A DNA stretch of 64,000 nucleotides, taken from the IMG/VR virus record IMGVR_UViG_3300026157_000001, positions 1 to 64,000 of that record; one strand, written 5' to 3'. Source of the stretch: a virus. Below, one piece after another: positions 21,111-63,800 of this stretch (position 1 is its first letter; each line of letters begins with the position of its first letter). The notes beneath the pieces are model-generated. The model searched no databases. It worked only from the letters and a program-made list of their open reading frames with translations, and was not told the DNA's origin. The position numbers were made by a program, and so were the translations under genes.

Positions 21111-22793
21111 CTATTTATAGTCTTCTAGTTTGTCAAGTGCTTTCTTGCGCTCTTCCCGCATCTTAAGCATCTTAACCTTCTTTTGTGGACCTCATACTTT
21201 CTTAGCTGCTTTATGGTGGTGGTGCCCATCCAGAATATATTTATCCTTACTTATTATCAATGGCTTCATAGACTGTTTCTTCTTAAGCTTGTCTATAAGC
21301 TTACGAAGTTTCTTCTTCTGATAGTCTATCTGGCTTGGCTTTACGTCTCTAAGGGCCATACTCACTGCTACCGGATCGTAGCCCCTCTTGAACTTATCGA
21401 GGTCCACCTGCGGCATATTTGAGCGCTTACGTTTAACTTGAGACTCTTTGTATAAGTTAGTATAGTTGTTCTCGTCTGCTCACTGCCTAATAGGTGGTAA
21501 AGGTTTTTTGCTCATACTTTTTGAGACCGAGTACCAATCAGCCAACATTTCTTTCTGTACATTTTTTGGAATGTCTGAGATATGTATATCCCTTGGCTCT
21601 CGGTACATATGGTGATCCTCAGAAATATAATGCTTTATCTTATGTGGGGTAAAGTCTTTTACTACATCTTCAGGTATTAACTCTTTGTTTCCTTTTTGGT
21701 CATAGAAGCCATCTTCTCCAAAGAAGTATTCCCGGTAAGGCGTCCAAGCTTTTGGATTAAATTTAGTCCTGTCGTGTAATAGCAGCTGCATCCTGGGAAC
21801 ACCTAATTCCCGGCCATGTTTATATACATCTGCCTTATGCTTTAAGATATACTTAAGTTGTTCCCAATCCTCTATACGGTTGTCTAAAAATTCTGATGTT
21901 TTGACATGTCCTAGTTTACTTTGCTTCCAATCTTTATATTTGTCTGAGTTTAAAGTCTTTCCTATTAAATATGAAGAGCTTCCTGCTGCTGCAGCCATCC
22001 CTAATGGAGTTGCCATATATGTCATCGCAGAGGGGAGTCTGGCCTTTGTATATTTTCCTAATGTTTTTAAATAACTACCTTTTGTTCCAAGTTCATCTGT
22101 TTTGTTCAACATTCTAACAGCTCGTCTATCCGCATCTAGCTCTTGTGCATTTCCTAACGTCCCAACTGCGCCCCCGGCTAATGCTGAGAGTCCTGCAACT
22201 TGAAGCTCTTTTCCTTTTTCTGCTGCAGGGCTTAAGGCACCACTAACCGCCATTACACCTATCATCGTTCTGGGTGTAGAACTTTGGGAAAATCTTAGCT
22301 TGTCTAAAAAATTTATCGACTTATTATACGCCTTGTCAGAATTAGAGAATTGTTCTATATGTCCTAACTCATGAGCTATAACATGACGCTTACTAGTTCG
22401 AGGATCAAATTGGACTTTTAACGCACCGTCAGTTCCTTTTGTTGCGGAAGATCCAAAATTAAGAGGGTTAGAAGAAAACTTTACCTCTTTATCTTTAACT
22501 TTAGAAACTTCTTTTAGTTTTTTAAAAGAAGCATTATCTTCTGGGCCAGTAGCAGTGGCAGATCTTGAAAGGAGTTCATCAGGTGTAAGTTTACCCTTTT
22601 TAAAATCCTCTGTTACTTTCTTTGTTCTTTTGTCGTACTGTTTTATATTCTTTTCTATTTGTTTATCGGAAGCACTAAACCCAGATAAATATGTACCCTG
22701 TCCAGTTATATAGCCTAAGCCGGCCGCACCTACTGCTTCAGGAAGCTCTTCCGGTTTTACTGGCCTTGAGAGTTTTTTTGTTGAGTCGCTCAT
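21111..22793 (-). CDS. Metalloprotease-like, DUF5662 and ParB-like multidomain protein
   Basis: 560 aa, joined by reading TGA at 21480-21482 and 21192-21194 as Trp; ends in TAG. Three domains are visible in order. Residues ~100-230 have a zincin motif, R-H-V-I-A-H-E-L-G-H-I-E-Q, with a downstream N-A-Q-E-L-D-A-D-R-R-A that fits the third ligand of M48-like proteases. Residues ~300-425 (D-W-E-Q-L-K-Y-I-L-K-H-K, H-D-R-T-K-F, H-Y-I-S-E-D-H-H, L-A-D-W-Y) match the DUF5662 pattern also present in the early gene at 28003. Residues ~470-545 (R-D-V-K-P-S-Q-I-D, P-L-I-I-S-K-D-K-Y-I-L-D-G-H-H-H-H) match ParB/sulfiredoxin-like nuclease or NTPase domains. A Gly/Ala helix separates the first two. Probably a virion-carried enzyme. 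Confidence 0.7.
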
Positions 22794-23224
22794 TACTTAA
22801 TTACTTTTAAAATATCTTTGAGTGTTTTTGCTCCATAAGCAGACTTTGTACTGCTGATCGAAGATGTTATGTGATCTACTCCCCGGCCTGCTCTCACTAA
22901 CGGATTCATATTCTTTTGTGACTTTCTAAGTTCTGACCTGCTCGCAGACATCTCATTTAAGAACGTGTCTTTAACGCCTCTTAATGATTTCTCTTGGGTC
23001 CTTGGATACCTTCCCTTTTCTTTATTGATATAATGGGTTAGCTCGTGACGTAGAATTTTGCGTTCTCCGCCTCTAGAAGTTACGGGGTCGATATCTACCC
23101 TTCCTTTCGTACCAGCGTCCGGCACAAACTGACCTCGGCGTCCTCCGGGCAATGCACGGTATTGTACGAGGGGTCCGGCCGCGTTCTTTTCAAGTAGATA
23201 ATCTACCGGTGTGACTTTGTTCAT
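22793..23224 (-). CDS. Small zinc-metalloprotease-like (zincin) protein
   Basis: 143 aa. The motif I-L-R-H-E-L-T-H-Y at residues ~57-65 gives H-E-x-x-H, and it is the second zincin in a row. The N-terminus P-V-D-Y-L-L-E-K-N-A-A-G matches the (L/I)-x-E-K-x-A motif shared by late proteins and could be a processing site, with the protease domain just after it. Third zinc ligand not assigned (E-M-S-A-S-R at ~112 is one option). It is coupled to both neighbours by single-base stop/start overlaps. Could be a lytic or maturation protease, or a DUF-type fold without activity. Confidence 0.55.
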   Translation of the reverse strand: MNKVTPVDYLLEKNAAGPLVQYRALPGGRRGQFVPDAGTKGRVDIDPVTSRGGERKILRHELTHYINKEKGRYPRTQEKSLRGVKDTFLNEMSASRSELRKSQKNMNPLVRAGRGVDHITSSISSTKSAYGAKTLKDILKVIK

Positions 23225-26200
23225 TATCTTGCATTCAACCCTGTGAAATATTTGAAGTCTGATTTTAATGCTTTATCGTATGTGTCTGTATGAGCATCTA
23301 ACTCTTTCAGTTGTTTCAGTTCTTTTTTTGTCACATAGACGTCAGCTGGTCTTCCGCTCATCATTTGTTTAGATCGTGGCAACGCTCCAACTGCTAAATA
23401 TTTAGAAGCTGTTCCGAAGTTCTTGTAATTTTCCTTCGGAGGTTCCGGGAAATTTTTATAGTCTGTCGTATTATATTTCTTATGAAGCTTGTCGACTGTT
23501 TTATTAAAGCGCTCTTTGTTAAACTCTGGATTTTCTTTATACTCTTTTTTAACTTTCGGTTTAGTAAGCATTCCTAACCCTCCAAGAGCAGTTGCTCCTG
23601 CTGCCGTACCTGCAAGAACTTTTCCTCACCCTGGTAATCTTTTGGTATCAGAGATTAATCCTGCTGCACCTCCTAAGGCACCACCTAGGCCTGCACCAAC
23701 AGTTACATTTTCTTTTCTTTTTGAATAGTCTTTTGTTTTCTCTACTACTGATGGGCTTAAGGTAGGATCTTTATCCTGTAGCTTATTAAGTTCTTTATCT
23801 GCTTTGCGGTTGCCTTCTTCTATTTTTCTATAGTTGGCAACATACTTTTTATGAGCATCTAAATCTTTTATGCCTGCTATATCCTCAAAATATCCAGCTC
23901 TTTTCTCAATTAAATAGTCAATCATTGCTGCTTTGTTCATAAATTTCTCTGGTCTTATATCCACCAAAACCGGTGCTTGGTGCAGCCCACTGCTATGGAC
24001 ATGTTGTGATTTTATTTTTGCCCATTCTCCGATAAAGTTATCAGGAGATTCATAAGCTTTTTGTCGAAGATCGTCGCTTAAACCAGTACCAATTCTAATA
24101 GGCACAGAACTTCCTTCTGGCAGGGCGATAAAGCCTCCAACACCAGATCCTTCATATTTAGATCCCTCAGAAGCTTCAAAGGTTCCGAGAATCTCTGCAT
24201 CATAATCATCTGTCTGTTTTACTTTCCTTGGAACAGGTTCATCTAGTTTATACACTACCAGACCTTCTTCCGTCTCAGGGTGAAATCCTTTCATAATACG
24301 ATTAAACATCTGTCGCTTGTCATGTGGATCAAATGCTAGTTCGGGGAGTTTAAGGTCCGGAATTTTATCACGGACTTCTTTTAACATCTCAAGTTTCCGG
24401 CTATATGGTAAGTCTTCTACATCTTTACCTTTAAACTTAACAACATCGAAAATTTTAAATTCTAGTGGTCGTTCTTTTTGCTGGATTTCTCGAGCTTTTG
24501 GTACCGAGGAATTGAGGATACGGGCTGTGTCGTTTCCTTTACCTCCAGGAACGAAAAGCTCGGAACGGAGTATTGTATTCCCAAGCTCTTTAGGGCTCGT
24601 TTGTTTATAGAGTGGTGTTTTAAATGTGTGGTCAATTCGCTCAGATCCTTTCCTTGAGCTCCTATAAGAGAACACGTCCGGACGTTTGTTAGGGCGTAAA
24701 ACGACCAAATTGTGAGCCCCGTCAAGCTTGGGAGCAAACACCTCTTCTGTTCTGGACGTGTCAAGCTTAAGCCTGTCGGCGTCGATGGTTTTGTAACTTT
24801 TCTTATAGCTGGGTACATCTTCATAAACTTTTGTTTCTTCTGATGGTGTATAATTATAAATCATCCAGTTATCTGTTCCACCCTTACGAAGTAAAATAAA
24901 TCGCTTAGTGTCCCGGCCAGGATACATGTTAAATTCAATCTTTGAGTCGCCGGCCTTCAATATGTCAACGTCCCCGAGAAATTTACTTTCGACTTCTCCT
25001 TTGCCATAGCCATCTTCGATGGTTCCGCTTCACCCCATATATTTAGAGGTGTGGTCCGGCTGACGAACTGCTAAATGCTTTTGGCCTGTCCCAGGCATAC
25101 CTTTGGGTAAAGCTCAAGAATAAGCCTTACTAGAACCAGGGGGAGATAGCCTAAGGTCTGTATGACTGTTGCTTACTAAAATTCCAGATATAAAATAATT
25201 ATGATTGCCTTCTACTTCTAAGTCAAACTTTTTTAAAGATAGCTTTTGGTTTTTATTTTTACCTTGTTTCGTCCTATACCTCTCTTTCTTCAAAACAGGT
25301 CTAGGATAAACAGTATTAAACTCTAAAAAGCTTTCAAAGTGAGGGCGAGTTTTTATTTTATTGTAAGTATTTGGAAGTTTATATGAAAATTCAGGCTGTA
25401 TAAATTTTGAAACAATATTAAAAAATAATTTATTAGAAGCTATTGCTGAAGAACATAAATAATAATACCCATCTCTTTCTCTTTTAGTAAAAGAAAGGCT
25501 GTACCTGGTATTTAAAAAGTGTTGTAATTTCTCAACTTCTTTCTCAGTAAAACCATTTGTATATAAATATAAATTTCCGGAATAGGGATCTACTCCTGCA
25601 TCACTACGTCTTTTGGTATTACGTTCTAATTTCTTAAAGTTGCTGCTTTGTGGTGACCATTGGCCATCATCCATAAACCATTGGGCTATAGCTGCGGGGG
25701 TTAAAAATTTAAATAGCTCATCTTTTATTACCTTAGTTCCATCTTTATAAAAAAGTTCAGATAGTGTGTGAAAATATTCATGCTTAAATCTAAAATAATA
25801 GAAGTCTGATCTATTTTTTCTCGCTTTTCTTAATTCTGTGTTTGTTGCAAATTTTTCAGAAAAATATTCGACTAGCTCTTTTTTAGACGCTTGTCCCCAA
25901 TTAAAGGCCGGTGTTCCAGTGTAATTTTGAGGTATTGAAGAATCTCCCAAAAGGGACCCAATTAAGAAATCTTTTTGGTTCTGTGATAGACCTCTGTCTT
26001 CCCGTAAAACCTCATGACTATTGGGATCAATATCTTTTGCAGGAATTTTATAGAGGTTATCTGTTCTTTTATCTTTTATAAAAATTTTATGGTTAGGCGT
26101 ACTCGTGCACCCGTTTCTTTTATTTAGGTACAATTTGTGCCAAAAGTCGGTACTACCATTTTCCCACACCCTTATAACCTTTTTATCTTCTACTTTTTTC

Positions 26201-26409
26201 GTTTGAGGATTAAAAGATTTTACTAAATCACCTATTTTTATGTCTCTAATATACTTTAGAGTGTTATCTGCCATTTTAACGCGAGCAGAGGGCATGAAAC
26301 ATCCAGCCCGTTCAGCATCGTGCTCCTGCAGATTTAACTGCCAGGTAGCATTCTCTGCTCTTGGTATAGACGTTTTTTGTTTTTTATCTGGTATTCCTGG
26401 TGCGTACAT
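23224..26409 (-). CDS. LigD-like 3'-phosphoesterase/ATP-dependent DNA ligase, intein-containing
   Basis: 1061-aa precursor in one frame when TGA at 25114-25116, 25030-25032 and 23626-23628 is Trp. The mature protein begins with a LigD-type 3'-phosphoesterase domain (L-Q-E-H-D-A-E-R-A-G, S-H-T-D-L-R-L, then S-W-A-L-P-K-G with TGA-encoded W, and I-E-D-G-Y-G-K-G), interrupted by a 378-aa intein. After it comes an ATP-dependent ligase domain: F-A-P-K-L-D-G-A-H (K-x-D-G nucleotidyl motif I), S-E-L-F-V (III), F-K-I-F-D-V-V (IIIa), E-E-G-L-V-V-Y-K (IV), K-V-K-Q (V) and an OB-like region. The C-terminus has the I-D-Y-L-I-E-K-R-A motif and glycine-zipper helices (G-A-G-L-G-G-A-L-G-G-A-A-G) as in other virion proteins. 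Role: healing and sealing of DNA ends, possibly carried in the virion. It is the first gene of the late operon from 26.4 kb. Confidence 0.8.
25168..26301 (-). other. Intein with LAGLIDADG endonuclease in the phosphoesterase domain
   Basis: 378 residues from Cys (C-F-M-P-S-A-R-V-K-M-A-D-G-like Hint block A) to V-S-N, followed by extein Ser. N-terminal splicing blocks: S-A-R-V-K-M-A, I-G-D-L-V-K, T-P-N-H-K-I (block B, T-x-x-H). Endonuclease blocks: F-L-I-G-S-L-L-G-D-S (first LAGLIDADG) and A-Q-W-F-M-D-D-G-Q-W (second). C-terminal blocks: F-D-L-E-V-E-G-N-H-N-Y-F (F) and I-L-V-S-N (G, terminal Asn with penultimate Ser in place of the usual His). Insertion falls between A-E-R-A-G and S-H-T-D-L-R-L, right beside the catalytic His-x-Asp of the phosphoesterase. 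Confidence 0.85.
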
Positions 26410-26467: not shown

Positions 26468-26491
26468 AAATTTGGTATAAGAGTAATGATA
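26468..26491 (+). promoter_or_regulatory. Early promoter element (GGTATAAGA family)
   Basis: AAATTTGGTATAAGAGTAAT at 26468 and on, preceded by AATTCCTAAAA, the same upstream block seen at the copy at 31691. It drives the gene at 26518. Confidence 0.75.
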
Positions 26492-26517
26492 AGCACTAAT
26501 CTAAACTAAATAAAACC

Positions 26518-27528: not shown

Positions 27529-27545
27529 AAAAGGCCATTTTTTGG
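27517..27545 (+). terminator. Terminator overlapping the next promoter
   Basis: TGGCC ... GGCCA hairpin (loop TCTTAAAAAA) followed by six T; the T run is at the same time the start of the next early promoter's TTTTTTGGTATAAG. Confidence 0.75.
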
Positions 27546-27562
27546 TATAAGAATAATGATAA
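27538..27562 (+). promoter_or_regulatory. Early promoter element (GGTATAAGA family)
   Basis: TTTTTTGGTATAAGAATAAT followed by GATAAGG, matching the copy at 31691 over more than 20 bases. It drives the three-gene unit starting at 27617. Confidence 0.8.
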
Positions 27563-27616
27563 GGTTTATTAAAACCTTAAGTCACTAACACAAAAAATAA
27601 CTAAATCGAACCTATT

Positions 27617-28880: not shown

Positions 28881-30056
28881 TTATTCTATTAATGGTAAAA
28901 TTGGGTCGATAGAGGAGAAGCATTCGTACTTTCCTGCAAATTCTTTTTTAGGTATATATGAATTCTTTTTACACTTGTTTTGAAGGTCTGTTTCAAATTC
29001 ACATGTCTCTCTCGCCTGATCAAACCTTAGCGTATCAATAATCTCAACATTATACGGAAAATATGAAGTCCTCTTTTTAACACTAGTATAAGTTTTACCT
29101 ATTTTGAAAAATTCAAAACCATTGTTTTCTTTCATTTTTACTATATAGATCTTAAAGCCTGTAAAATTTTTAGAATCTTTGCTATGCATTTCCCACTCAC
29201 TATAGGACCATGAGCGGCTCTTGTATAGGCCTAAGACTTCATACTGACATTGTGTACAACCACCAGATTCGGCACTACGGTGGTCATAGGCTTTTGTAGT
29301 GATTTTTCCATGTAATAAACATCTTACTGTTATATCTTTTTTATTTCCGTTGTAAACCATGTCTGAATAGTCAAAACGCTTTCTTTTTTCTGGGGATAAT
29401 GAATCTAAAAAATCTTGCTTACTATAAATCCTGTCTTCTCTTTTTTTCTCATTGACACACGTCGGACAACTGTCTAAAGAGTTCAAATGTGAAGAGGGGG
29501 TTTGCTTAAACTCTTTATTATGTTTCTTGCAAATAAATATTACTTTGGTCGCTGCGTCTTTATAAATAACCTTTGAATAATCGAACCTATCGCCGTAGAT
29601 GGCCTTTGACTCCTTTATAAATTCTTTTTTAGTTTTTTTATTGTACGGTGTGTAGCATTTGCGACAGCCACCTTTAGAACTATCAAGGTGCGTTTGGGGA
29701 GTCGTCCTAAACTCTCCATGATCTTTGCAAATAAAGGTAACTTTTGTTCTCCAGTTAATATATTTTACTTTAGTGTAGTCAAACTTATCACCAAACTTTT
29801 CGTGAGCTCTTTGAAGAAATAATGTCTTTAATCTTTCTCTATTTGTGTTATGTATGTTATCAATTGCACAAAGGTTGCAACCGCATTTACTATTAAGGTG
29901 GCTGGCGGGTGTTTGCATAAATGGGCCATGATTCCTACAAATAATTTTTACTTTAGTTCGATTGTTGACATATTTTACCTTCGTATAGTCATATTTGTGG
30001 CCATGAGCTTTCTTAAAGTCTGCTATGCACTCTTCTTGTGTTTTTCGTCTAGGCAT
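28881..30056 (-). CDS. DUF723-repeat homing-endonuclease-like protein
   Basis: 391 aa. Four copies of a ~65-residue repeat can be seen, each with F-D-Y-[TS]-K-V-x-Y, then T-K-V-x-[FI]-I-C-x-x-H-G and a C-x-x-C near the end (C-G-C-N-L-C, C-R-K-C, C-P-T-C, C-T-Q-C). These are the zinc-binding repeats found in phage free-standing nucleases. The C-terminal ~100 residues (K-I-Y-I-V-K-M, F-F-K-I-G-K-T) resemble a GIY-YIG-like domain. It overlaps the sulfotransferase gene by 8 nt on the same strand. It is probably a mobile endonuclease gene, inserted against the direction of neighbouring early genes. Confidence 0.65.
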   Translation of the reverse strand: MPRRKTQEECIADFKKAHGHKYDYTKVKYVNNRTKVKIICRNHGPFMQTPASHLNSKCGCNLCAIDNIHNTNRERLKTLFLQRAHEKFGDKFDYTKVKYINWRTKVTFICKDHGEFRTTPQTHLDSSKGGCRKCYTPYNKKTKKEFIKESKAIYGDRFDYSKVIYKDAATKVIFICKKHNKEFKQTPSSHLNSLDSCPTCVNEKKREDRIYSKQDFLDSLSPEKRKRFDYSDMVYNGNKKDITVRCLLHGKITTKAYDHRSAESGGCTQCQYEVLGLYKSRSWSYSEWEMHSKDSKNFTGFKIYIVKMKENNGFEFFKIGKTYTSVKKRTSYFPYNVEIIDTLRFDQARETCEFETDLQNKCKKNSYIPKKEFAGKYECFSSIDPILPLIE

Positions 30057-60895: not shown

Positions 60896-63800
60896 ATGTC
60901 ATTACAAGAAACCGAACGGTTTAATACCAGAGAAGGTACGAAGGGTATGAGTAAAGGAATTGACGCATCTTCAGAAAAGATGGTCATGGATATACTCCAG
61001 GCTACCCAGTATGCAAAGCCTGAAGAATCTACAGTACGTGAGCTAGCATCCAATGCTGTTGATTCACAAAGAGAAAAAGAGATTGCGTATGATATTTTGT
61101 CAAACGGGGCTGACCCTGACGACTACTTTGTCGAACGAGAGGGAGCGCAGTACGAAAGCTCTAAATGGGATCCGTCCTATTTTGATATAAACTATTTCGA
61201 CATGACGAAAACAAACGTTCTCATTCAATATATAGAGAACGCCGGCACAGGCTATTGCGACGAGTTCAGTGTAACTGACTATGGCGTAGGTCTGGGCATG
61301 CCAAGACTCCGGGGTTATTTTAACTTAGGATATTCCTCAAAAAGAAATACAAAACATGCGTTAGGCGCTTTTGGTATCGGAGCAAAAAGTCCGCTGTCAA
61401 CTCAGGTGCCATTCTATACTCTAGAAACTGCGCATAACGGCCGGAAGTATAAATTCAATATCTATCCCTATAAAGTAGAGAGTACAACCCCTCGCTTTAA
61501 TATGGAGACAGAGGATGAATACCCAACGCAGAATATAGGCACAGAAAAAGACCCCTATATCATCCACTATATTCCAACGGATGAGAAAAACTTCTGTAAA
61601 GTATCAATGGGTGTCAAGCGCCATAACCGGCACAGATACCGTGATGCGGTAAAACACCAACTACTGTATTTTCCCAATGTAGACTTCCAGTATAAATATG
61701 AAGGCAACGACCATTGGAATGAAATAGAGTTTCAGGCAGATATTCTACACAACAGCGACAGCCTGATTATATCCTCTAACATGCAGTATAGTAAACCACA
61801 CATTGTGGTAGTAAAAGAGAAAGGATCTGACATGGGCGTTACCTATGGCACGATTGATTTCCAAGAGCTTGAGATGGAAACCCTACGTGGTTCTATCGGC
61901 TTTAAATGTCCTATTAGATCGGTCGTGGAAGACCGAGAGACTGGTGAACGAAAAGTAGTACAAGACGGCGTTTCTGTAAATCCTAGAATTTGGTTATTAA
62001 TATAACTTTTTGTACTTTAGATTATGAAAAAATCTAAAGCAGGTATTTATAAAATAAGTTTCCAATGTAGCCATTTAAATGTATACTACGGAAGCACAAA
62101 TAAGTTTAACAGGCGTAAATCTCAACATTTACATCTTTTAAGACGAGGTAAACATAGTAACCCTATATTACAGAGTTACTTTAATAAATATGGAGAAACC
62201 TCATTTAAATTTAGTAAAGTTGAGACAATCTTAGATGAAGACGAAGAGTATATAGTAAAGCGAGAGCAGTATTATATTGATGCTTTAGAATCTAACCAAG
62301 ATATAAAAACTCTTAATTGTAATTTGGAGGCTGGAAGGCCTCCTTATACATGAACAGAAGAAAGACGAGAGGAGCTCAGAGAGCGTAATAAAAATTATAA
62401 GTGGACAAAGGAAAGACGAGAAAAGCACTCTCGTATAAAACAAGGATCCACACGCTCAGAAGAGGCTAAAGAAAAAACCTCAGAATCTTTAAAAGAGTTT
62501 TATTCTCACCTAAGAACAGAAGAAAGGGCCTGCCCTTATTGTAATTCGCTTTATACAAGGAAAGTTGGTAAGCGATATAATAAAACAAAGAAGCAAATGA
62601 ATCAGCGATATAAATGCACCGACTGTGACAAGAACTTCTTTAAACCTATCAAAAAGTAATTAATAACTCGCTGGGCCTTTATAGAGCAATCTATAAAGTG
62701 CATTGGGTGAATTGCTGGAAGGCGAAAGCTAATCAGCAGCCAAGCTAGGGGTACACCCCTAGAAGGTTCAGAGACTAGTGGAGGGGTAAAGCCCCCTTAA
62801 TGACCACAATAGCGCCCAACATCTCTCAGAGATGATGATATAGTCCACCCCGCTTTATAAGTGCGGGTTGAGCAGAGAAAGCGTTGTCTGGGACGAAAAC
62901 ACCAGAGCTTATATCCAGAAAGTAATTAAAGATGCTCAGGATGAAGCATCAAAAATTATCCAGGCCGAGCTAAAAACAGATGATTTCTATACATGGCTGC
63001 AGCGCAGCACAGAGATTATCAATCAGATGAGCGCCTTCTCCTATCAGGAAACAAAGCTAACTATATTAGCAAAGATTGTTGATAAGCATAAGCTTCAAAC
63101 AAAGTTTCCAGGAGACTCACGCATTATATATAAGCATAACCCGTCTACATTCTTTAAGGATATAGAAGTAAAAGCTATTGAAAAAGACCAGATCTATAAA
63201 AATGGCAAATATAAGACAAAGATAAACCGGGATGATGTACCAAACTGGGGATACTTTAAAGGGTCTTTAGTGTATGAGATGACTGAGGACGAGCGCCACA
63301 GTGTGACGAAAGATCTTTATATTCAGCACTTAAAGGATAGCAATCACTTTATTACAGTAAAGAAAGCTACCGATGAGCAAGTAAAAGAACGAATAGGTAA
63401 ACGCTTTAAAGATACTCAGGTAGCCACAAGAGGTGGTGAAAAGATCACCAAAAAGATTAAAGAAGAAATCGCATACGCTATAGAACAGCGAGACATTATT
63501 TGGGATGCGCTATTTGGAAGTGATCATATAGAGATTGAAAACTATGCTGACATTGAAGTAACGGATGAGTTCCGAGAACTGATGAAAAAGCAGAAGGAAG
63601 AAGCGGAAGAAGAAGAACAAGAAGACAAAATGGCAAATATGACGCCTAAAGAGCGTCGTGAAATGCTTGGTAAGACTGTTTGCTATTCTTTCAAAAAGAA
63701 CCCAAGAGCTACCGGGTACAGCAGCTCTAAGGACTGGGTGCTATCAAAGAAAGAGCCAGTCGTAAATGACTTGGTCAATTTTGATAAACCGGTTATCTAC

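Follow-up and report, generated by a model that had tools for sequence, protein, structure and literature searches.

Inteins that lack a penultimate His, a residue known to assist splicing (PMC4031507), have precedents in phages. Mycobacteriophage inteins carry Gly, Lys, or Ser in its place, and when the penultimate Gly of one of them was changed to His, splicing became slower (PMC5050341). Like the element described below, the class 1 members of this group do without the penultimate His and lie at or near conserved motifs, one of them in a metallophosphoesterase domain, although the protein that houses that one is a recombination directionality factor rather than a LigD-type phosphoesterase (PE) (PMC5050341). 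A phage nucleic acid ligase with a LAGLIDADG intein is also on record, in Pseudaeromonas phage KLEP7 (28% identity); there, however, the extein is an RNA ligase and the intein ends in VHN/S. As for the PE domain itself, in Pseudomonas LigD manganese is bound by His42, His48, and Asp50, and the phosphate is held by Arg52, His84, and Tyr88 (PMC8656161).

A further precedent concerns stop codons. In crAss-like phages, TGA is reassigned to Trp mostly in late genes, and an intein and recoding have been reported together in one gene; that gene encodes TerL, the reassigned codon is TAG, and the inteins are of the Hint-Hop type (PMC7886860). A suppressor tRNA is often missing from recoded phages (PMC7886860, PMC11210395), being present in 11 of 73 phages predicted to use a TGA=Trp code (PMC11210395).

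The window considered here, the whole analyzed stretch of 64,000 nucleotides from the virus record IMGVR_UViG_3300026157_000001, contains on its minus strand a gene (23224..26409; 1061 codons if TGA is read as Trp) in which a PE domain is split by an intein. The favored reading, to which we assign a probability of roughly 0.86, is that a class 1 LAGLIDADG intein occupies the active site of a PE-ligase, that the gene yields one precursor if TGA means Trp, and that the intein splices itself out and homes.

The host gene and the anatomy of its intein

The host gene is the first of a leftward late block and is predicted to encode the PE domain, an ATP-dependent ligase domain, and, after Gly-rich hydrophobic segments, a C-terminal region. 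The precursor matches the Pfam family LigD_N (3e-9) at residues 414 to 476, beginning where the intein ends. The Pfam match to the ligase domain is weak (21.8 bits, just below the cut-off of 26.2), with the KLDG of ligase motif I present (Lys561 at 24727..24729, minus strand, placed by homologue alignment) and KxDG invariant in four homologues. Because no Prim-Pol (polymerase) domain is matched within the gene, it is called a LigD-type PE-ligase and not LigD, with the proviso that the polymerase domain is not universal in LigD. A structure model of the extein was discarded for its mean pLDDT of 42.6. In three phage homologues (L008, L009, and L010), a 2H (LigT-like) phosphoesterase domain that is absent from the window gene stands ahead of PE and ligase, making a three-part end-healing and sealing protein. 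A separate observation is that the motif MNKxxxxDYLxEKxAG occurs in two adjoining minus-strand proteins, at the start of the one encoded at 22793-23224 and internally in that at 23224-26409.

The intein itself (25168..26301, minus strand) comprises 378 amino acids, starting at Cys1 with CFMPSARV and ending in GILVSN, so that the terminal Asn is followed by Ser (VSN/Ser), as in class 1 inteins. Its reading frame contains no stop over 378 codons, while the other two minus-strand frames contain 28 and 50. Three functional parts can be distinguished, all on the minus strand: (i) an N-terminal splicing (Hint) part at 25984..26301, with Cys1 and the block B sequence TPNH; (ii) an endonuclease domain of the LAGLIDADG_2 family and I-SceI/I-WcaI type at 25456..25971, assigned by Pfam, sequence match, and predicted fold; and (iii) a C-terminal splicing part with blocks F and G, KKFDLEVEGNHNYFISGILVSN, at 25168..25239, assigned by NCBIfam and alignment. 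Translation and alignment place the two LAGLIDADG motifs at 25942..25971 (DFLIGSLLGD) and 25663..25692 (AIAQWFMDDG), and the acidic residues of both (LLGD and FMDDG) are intact. The preliminary description had given these boundaries, the length, the Cys start, the V-S-N/Ser end, and two LAGLIDADG motifs, all of which are borne out (the motifs as LIGSLLGD and QWFMDDG). The profile search it proposed also recognizes the intein: Pfam matches the precursor to Intein_splicing (3e-9, residues 45 to 414) and LAGLIDADG_2 (2e-24, residues 147 to 318), and of the NCBIfam models the C-terminal one scores above its cut-off and the N-terminal one below. A profile scan of the whole 68.8-kb record (68,769 bases) finds this one intein only, with no internal stop. 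On these features, the insert is a genuine class 1 LAGLIDADG intein.

What are its closest relatives? Apart from a single viral intein described in the next section, the next full-length matches are the actinobacterial RecA inteins (23 to 27% identity), which were also the sole full-length matches when chromosomal genomes were scanned once with the intein pair for inteins in PE domains (79 loci, the flanks of weaker matches being read in part). They too are LAGLIDADG inteins that align over residues 1 to 378 but, unlike the window intein, they sit in RecA (GVMFG/SPETT) and have a penultimate His. Cys1, the block B TxxH (here TPNH), the block F His (NHN), and the terminal Asn are common to the window intein, its viral relative, and the RecA inteins, and Cys1 is kept in 7/7 aligned inteins. 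The endonuclease domain matches I-SceI in sequence, and in a predicted model of the intein (mean pLDDT 71.6) this part matches I-WcaI and I-SceI. Matches of the model to whole inteins (PI-SceI, VMA) are weak, with low TM-scores, probably because the relative placement of its parts is uncertain.

The N-extein (26302..26409, minus strand) is only 36 amino acids long. Its opening motif, YAPGIP(D/S), is found in L009 and L010 too (L008 has FAPGIPS), and its last residues are QEHDAERAG; the C-extein begins SHTDLRL. Homologue alignment identifies H30, H416, D418, R420, H453, and Y457 as the equivalents of His42, His48, Asp50, Arg52, His84, and Tyr88, the Pseudomonas numbering being assigned by motif spacing, without direct alignment. 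His30 (26320..26322, minus strand) thus lies in the N-extein, and His416-Thr-Asp418 (25156..25164, minus strand) lies in the C-extein. The insertion between A-E-R-A-G and S-H-T-D-L-R-L, already placed in the LigD PE by the preliminary description, maps between the Mn-binding His/His/Asp residues. Since the 378-residue intein divides these residues in the unspliced precursor, PE activity should depend on splicing. In the literature searched, no paper links LigD, a phosphoesterase domain, and an intein, and the metal-binding center of the PE is a new extein and insertion site for a known kind of element. To that extent, the earlier impression that an intein in a LigD PE is unfamiliar stands, but this phage is not alone in having the site occupied.

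A second occupied site and its empty relatives

Searching 2.9 million viral contigs with the intein as the query returned one close relative, in L015 (IMGVR_UViG_3300034152_000949). The L015 intein is 36% identical to the window intein over 378 residues, is unannotated, and shares with it Cys1, LAGLIDADG, the VSN/S end, and the identical insertion point in the PE (HKAEKAG/SHFDLRL). Its host protein differs, being 1800 amino acids long and combining a DJ-1/PfpI domain with a PE domain at its C-terminus, and its frame, unlike that of the window gene, is open without recoding. With terminases only 28% identical, the two intein-bearing phages are distant. A scan of viral contigs for the junction pattern, in which certain residues were fixed at set places, also recovered only L015.

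Both inteins have Ser at the penultimate position, which makes this a shared trait. The preliminary description was right that Ser replaces the usual His (His is frequent there, not defining), but its suggestion of slow splicing need not follow, given the same Ser in L015 and the phage precedent (PMC5050341).

The search of related phages for empty sites that had been proposed now yields about 16 homologues in which the site is uninterrupted. By alignment, these include L006/L013, L007, L008, L009/L010, L011, L012, and L014, and the site is also empty in L154-L158, L160, and L162-L164. Some are close kin of an occupied gene, the empty PE domains of L154 and L014 being about 80% and 70% identical, respectively, to that of L015. 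The +1 residue is Ser in the two occupied genes only; in the empty genes it is Leu, His, Glu, Arg, Pro, or Asp, and none of them has Ser, Thr, or Cys there. A requirement of the intein for Ser+1 would lead one to expect this pattern, and its origin would be accounted for by co-conversion of the flanking sequence in the course of homing. In a tree of nine PE domains, built from a short alignment in which the placement of the window gene is only moderately supported, the two occupied genes do not group, so that at least two changes of state are needed. As a separate matter, the PE-ligase gene of L007 (L007:6001-8373) is broken by about 1.1 kb in which a further ORF, with an HEYGH motif, is located; both halves of the gene share one frame.

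Is the element still mobile? It could splice but no longer move, its distribution reflecting vertical descent with repeated loss, and the finding of just two occupied sites, with no transfer directly seen, is compatible with that account. We nevertheless consider it unlikely, though worth serious attention: the two-motif endonuclease has its acidic residues intact, the occupied genes lie on separate branches next to empty relatives, and the GC content of the intein is lower than that of the surrounding genes (31.6% versus 39.9% in the late block). An intein that is probably still active and mobile fits these sequence features.

Other candidate homing elements accompany the intein, as the preliminary description had noted for an rIIA intron and a DUF723 gene; Rfam and a domain match locate both. 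The group I intron (62638-62865, plus strand, Rfam 78 bits) lies downstream of an rIIA-like gene with a HATPase domain (60896-62005). The DUF723 gene (28881-30056, minus strand) encodes a DUF723 and DUF4379 treble-clef zinc-finger protein and is possibly a free-standing homing-type gene.

TGA codons in the host gene and the late block

The preliminary description was silent on the host gene's dependence on recoding. Under translation table 11, the minus-strand ORF 26409-25114 closes at a TGA 17 codons past the intein, inside the SWALPKG motif (SSKAYS*ALPKGMP); only with TGA as Trp is the extein complete. Read in this way, the frame runs on to a TAA at 23224, for 1061 codons, with three TGAs and no internal TAA or TAG. 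All three TGAs (minus strand) are 3' of the intein. The first, codon 432 (25114..25116), is the W of SWALPKG and is TGG in L008, L009, and L010. The second, codon 460 (25030..25032), is TGG in L009 and L010 and a Phe codon, TTC, in L008. The third, codon 928 (23626..23628), has a Gly-rich hydrophobic segment on either side and is likewise TGA in L004, a sibling phage with 99.7% identity.

The late block to which the gene belongs consists of 24 leftward genes (257-26409, minus strand), among them those for the major head protein and the terminase large subunit. It contains 20 in-frame TGAs, at likely Trp positions, against 61 TGG codons, and the other counted genes of the window contain 0 against 101 (Fisher's exact p 2e-8, a guide only, as the codons of one gene are not fully independent). 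Nine late genes besides the host gene show the pattern. The leftward late genes were delimited by table 4, so that none can end in TGA, while 4 of the 34 rightward genes, delimited by table 11, do. Judged from TGAs at conserved Trp positions in late genes only, this is a late-gene TGA-to-Trp recoding as in crAss-like phages, which also resemble the window in combining an intein and stop codon reassignment in a single gene. The window case differs from theirs in that the gene encodes a PE-ligase, the codon is TGA, and the intein is of the LAGLIDADG type and itself free of TGA. Its five Trp codons are all TGG, a count (0/5) that does not differ significantly from the TGA share of about 25% in the late block. 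Upstream of two successive rightward genes, near-identical copies of the motif TTTGGTATAAGARTAATGATAAG (plus strand, approximately 26473-26500 and 27540-27570) may represent a promoter.

Could the standard code alone apply? Translation would then stop 17 codons past the intein, leaving the intein with short flanks, and a downstream ligase ORF, for which 24960-23626 with its TTG start is available, would be translated separately. In the 68.8-kb record, which is linear and may be incomplete, no credible suppressor tRNA-Trp(UCA) was found, nor a tRNA of any kind, even with intron-allowing and relaxed settings, which counts in favor of this account. It is very improbable all the same, in that it breaks up a stretch including the segment to the second TGA as well as the conserved motif SWALPKG, the homologues run uninterrupted over both positions, where L009 and L010 have TGG, and the same TGA pattern recurs in nine other late genes. 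A related speculation, quite improbable in our estimation, is that recoding gates the host enzyme and not the intein. With all three TGAs after the intein and none inside, the standard code would still give a complete intein; ribosomes using it could make the full intein with a 17-residue C-extein and release an active homing endonuclease, and production of the PE-ligase would have to await the reading of UGA as Trp.

Least probable of all is a decaying intein that lost splicing along with its penultimate His, the TGAs being pseudogene mutations: the penultimate Ser and the three in-frame TGAs under table 11 would suit it, but the same Ser is kept in an L015 intein only 36% identical, which makes decay unlikely, both LAGLIDADG aspartates and the splicing residues are intact, the frame is open for 1061 codons with TGA as its only internal stop, Ser+1 is retained though absent from the empty relatives, and the pseudogene reading is rejected because the TGAs fall on Trp positions (as both of those in the PE domain do) and stay within the late block, throughout which they occur, in the sibling phage too.

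Proposed pathway and significance

How, then, would the active intein of the favored reading operate? A single precursor would be made from the host gene, given that UGA is read as Trp. Splicing would follow the customary steps, beginning with an N-S shift at Cys1, continuing with transfer to Ser+1, and ending with cyclization of the Asn, for which the block F His, in place of a penultimate one, is the probable helper. The joined extein would have its His/His/Asp metal site restored. The freed LAGLIDADG protein could then cut the uninterrupted site in co-infecting relatives, where its gene would be copied.

Annotation by the standard code cannot see the window extein as one protein. A new insertion site for inteins is now on record, the metal-binding center of a LigD-type PE. 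The two occupied genes, each with Ser+1 and a penultimate Ser, form a natural pair for studying Asn cyclization without the usual His. Because the site has two occupants in distantly related phages and is empty in many relatives, a direct test of homing into this phage end-repair gene is possible.
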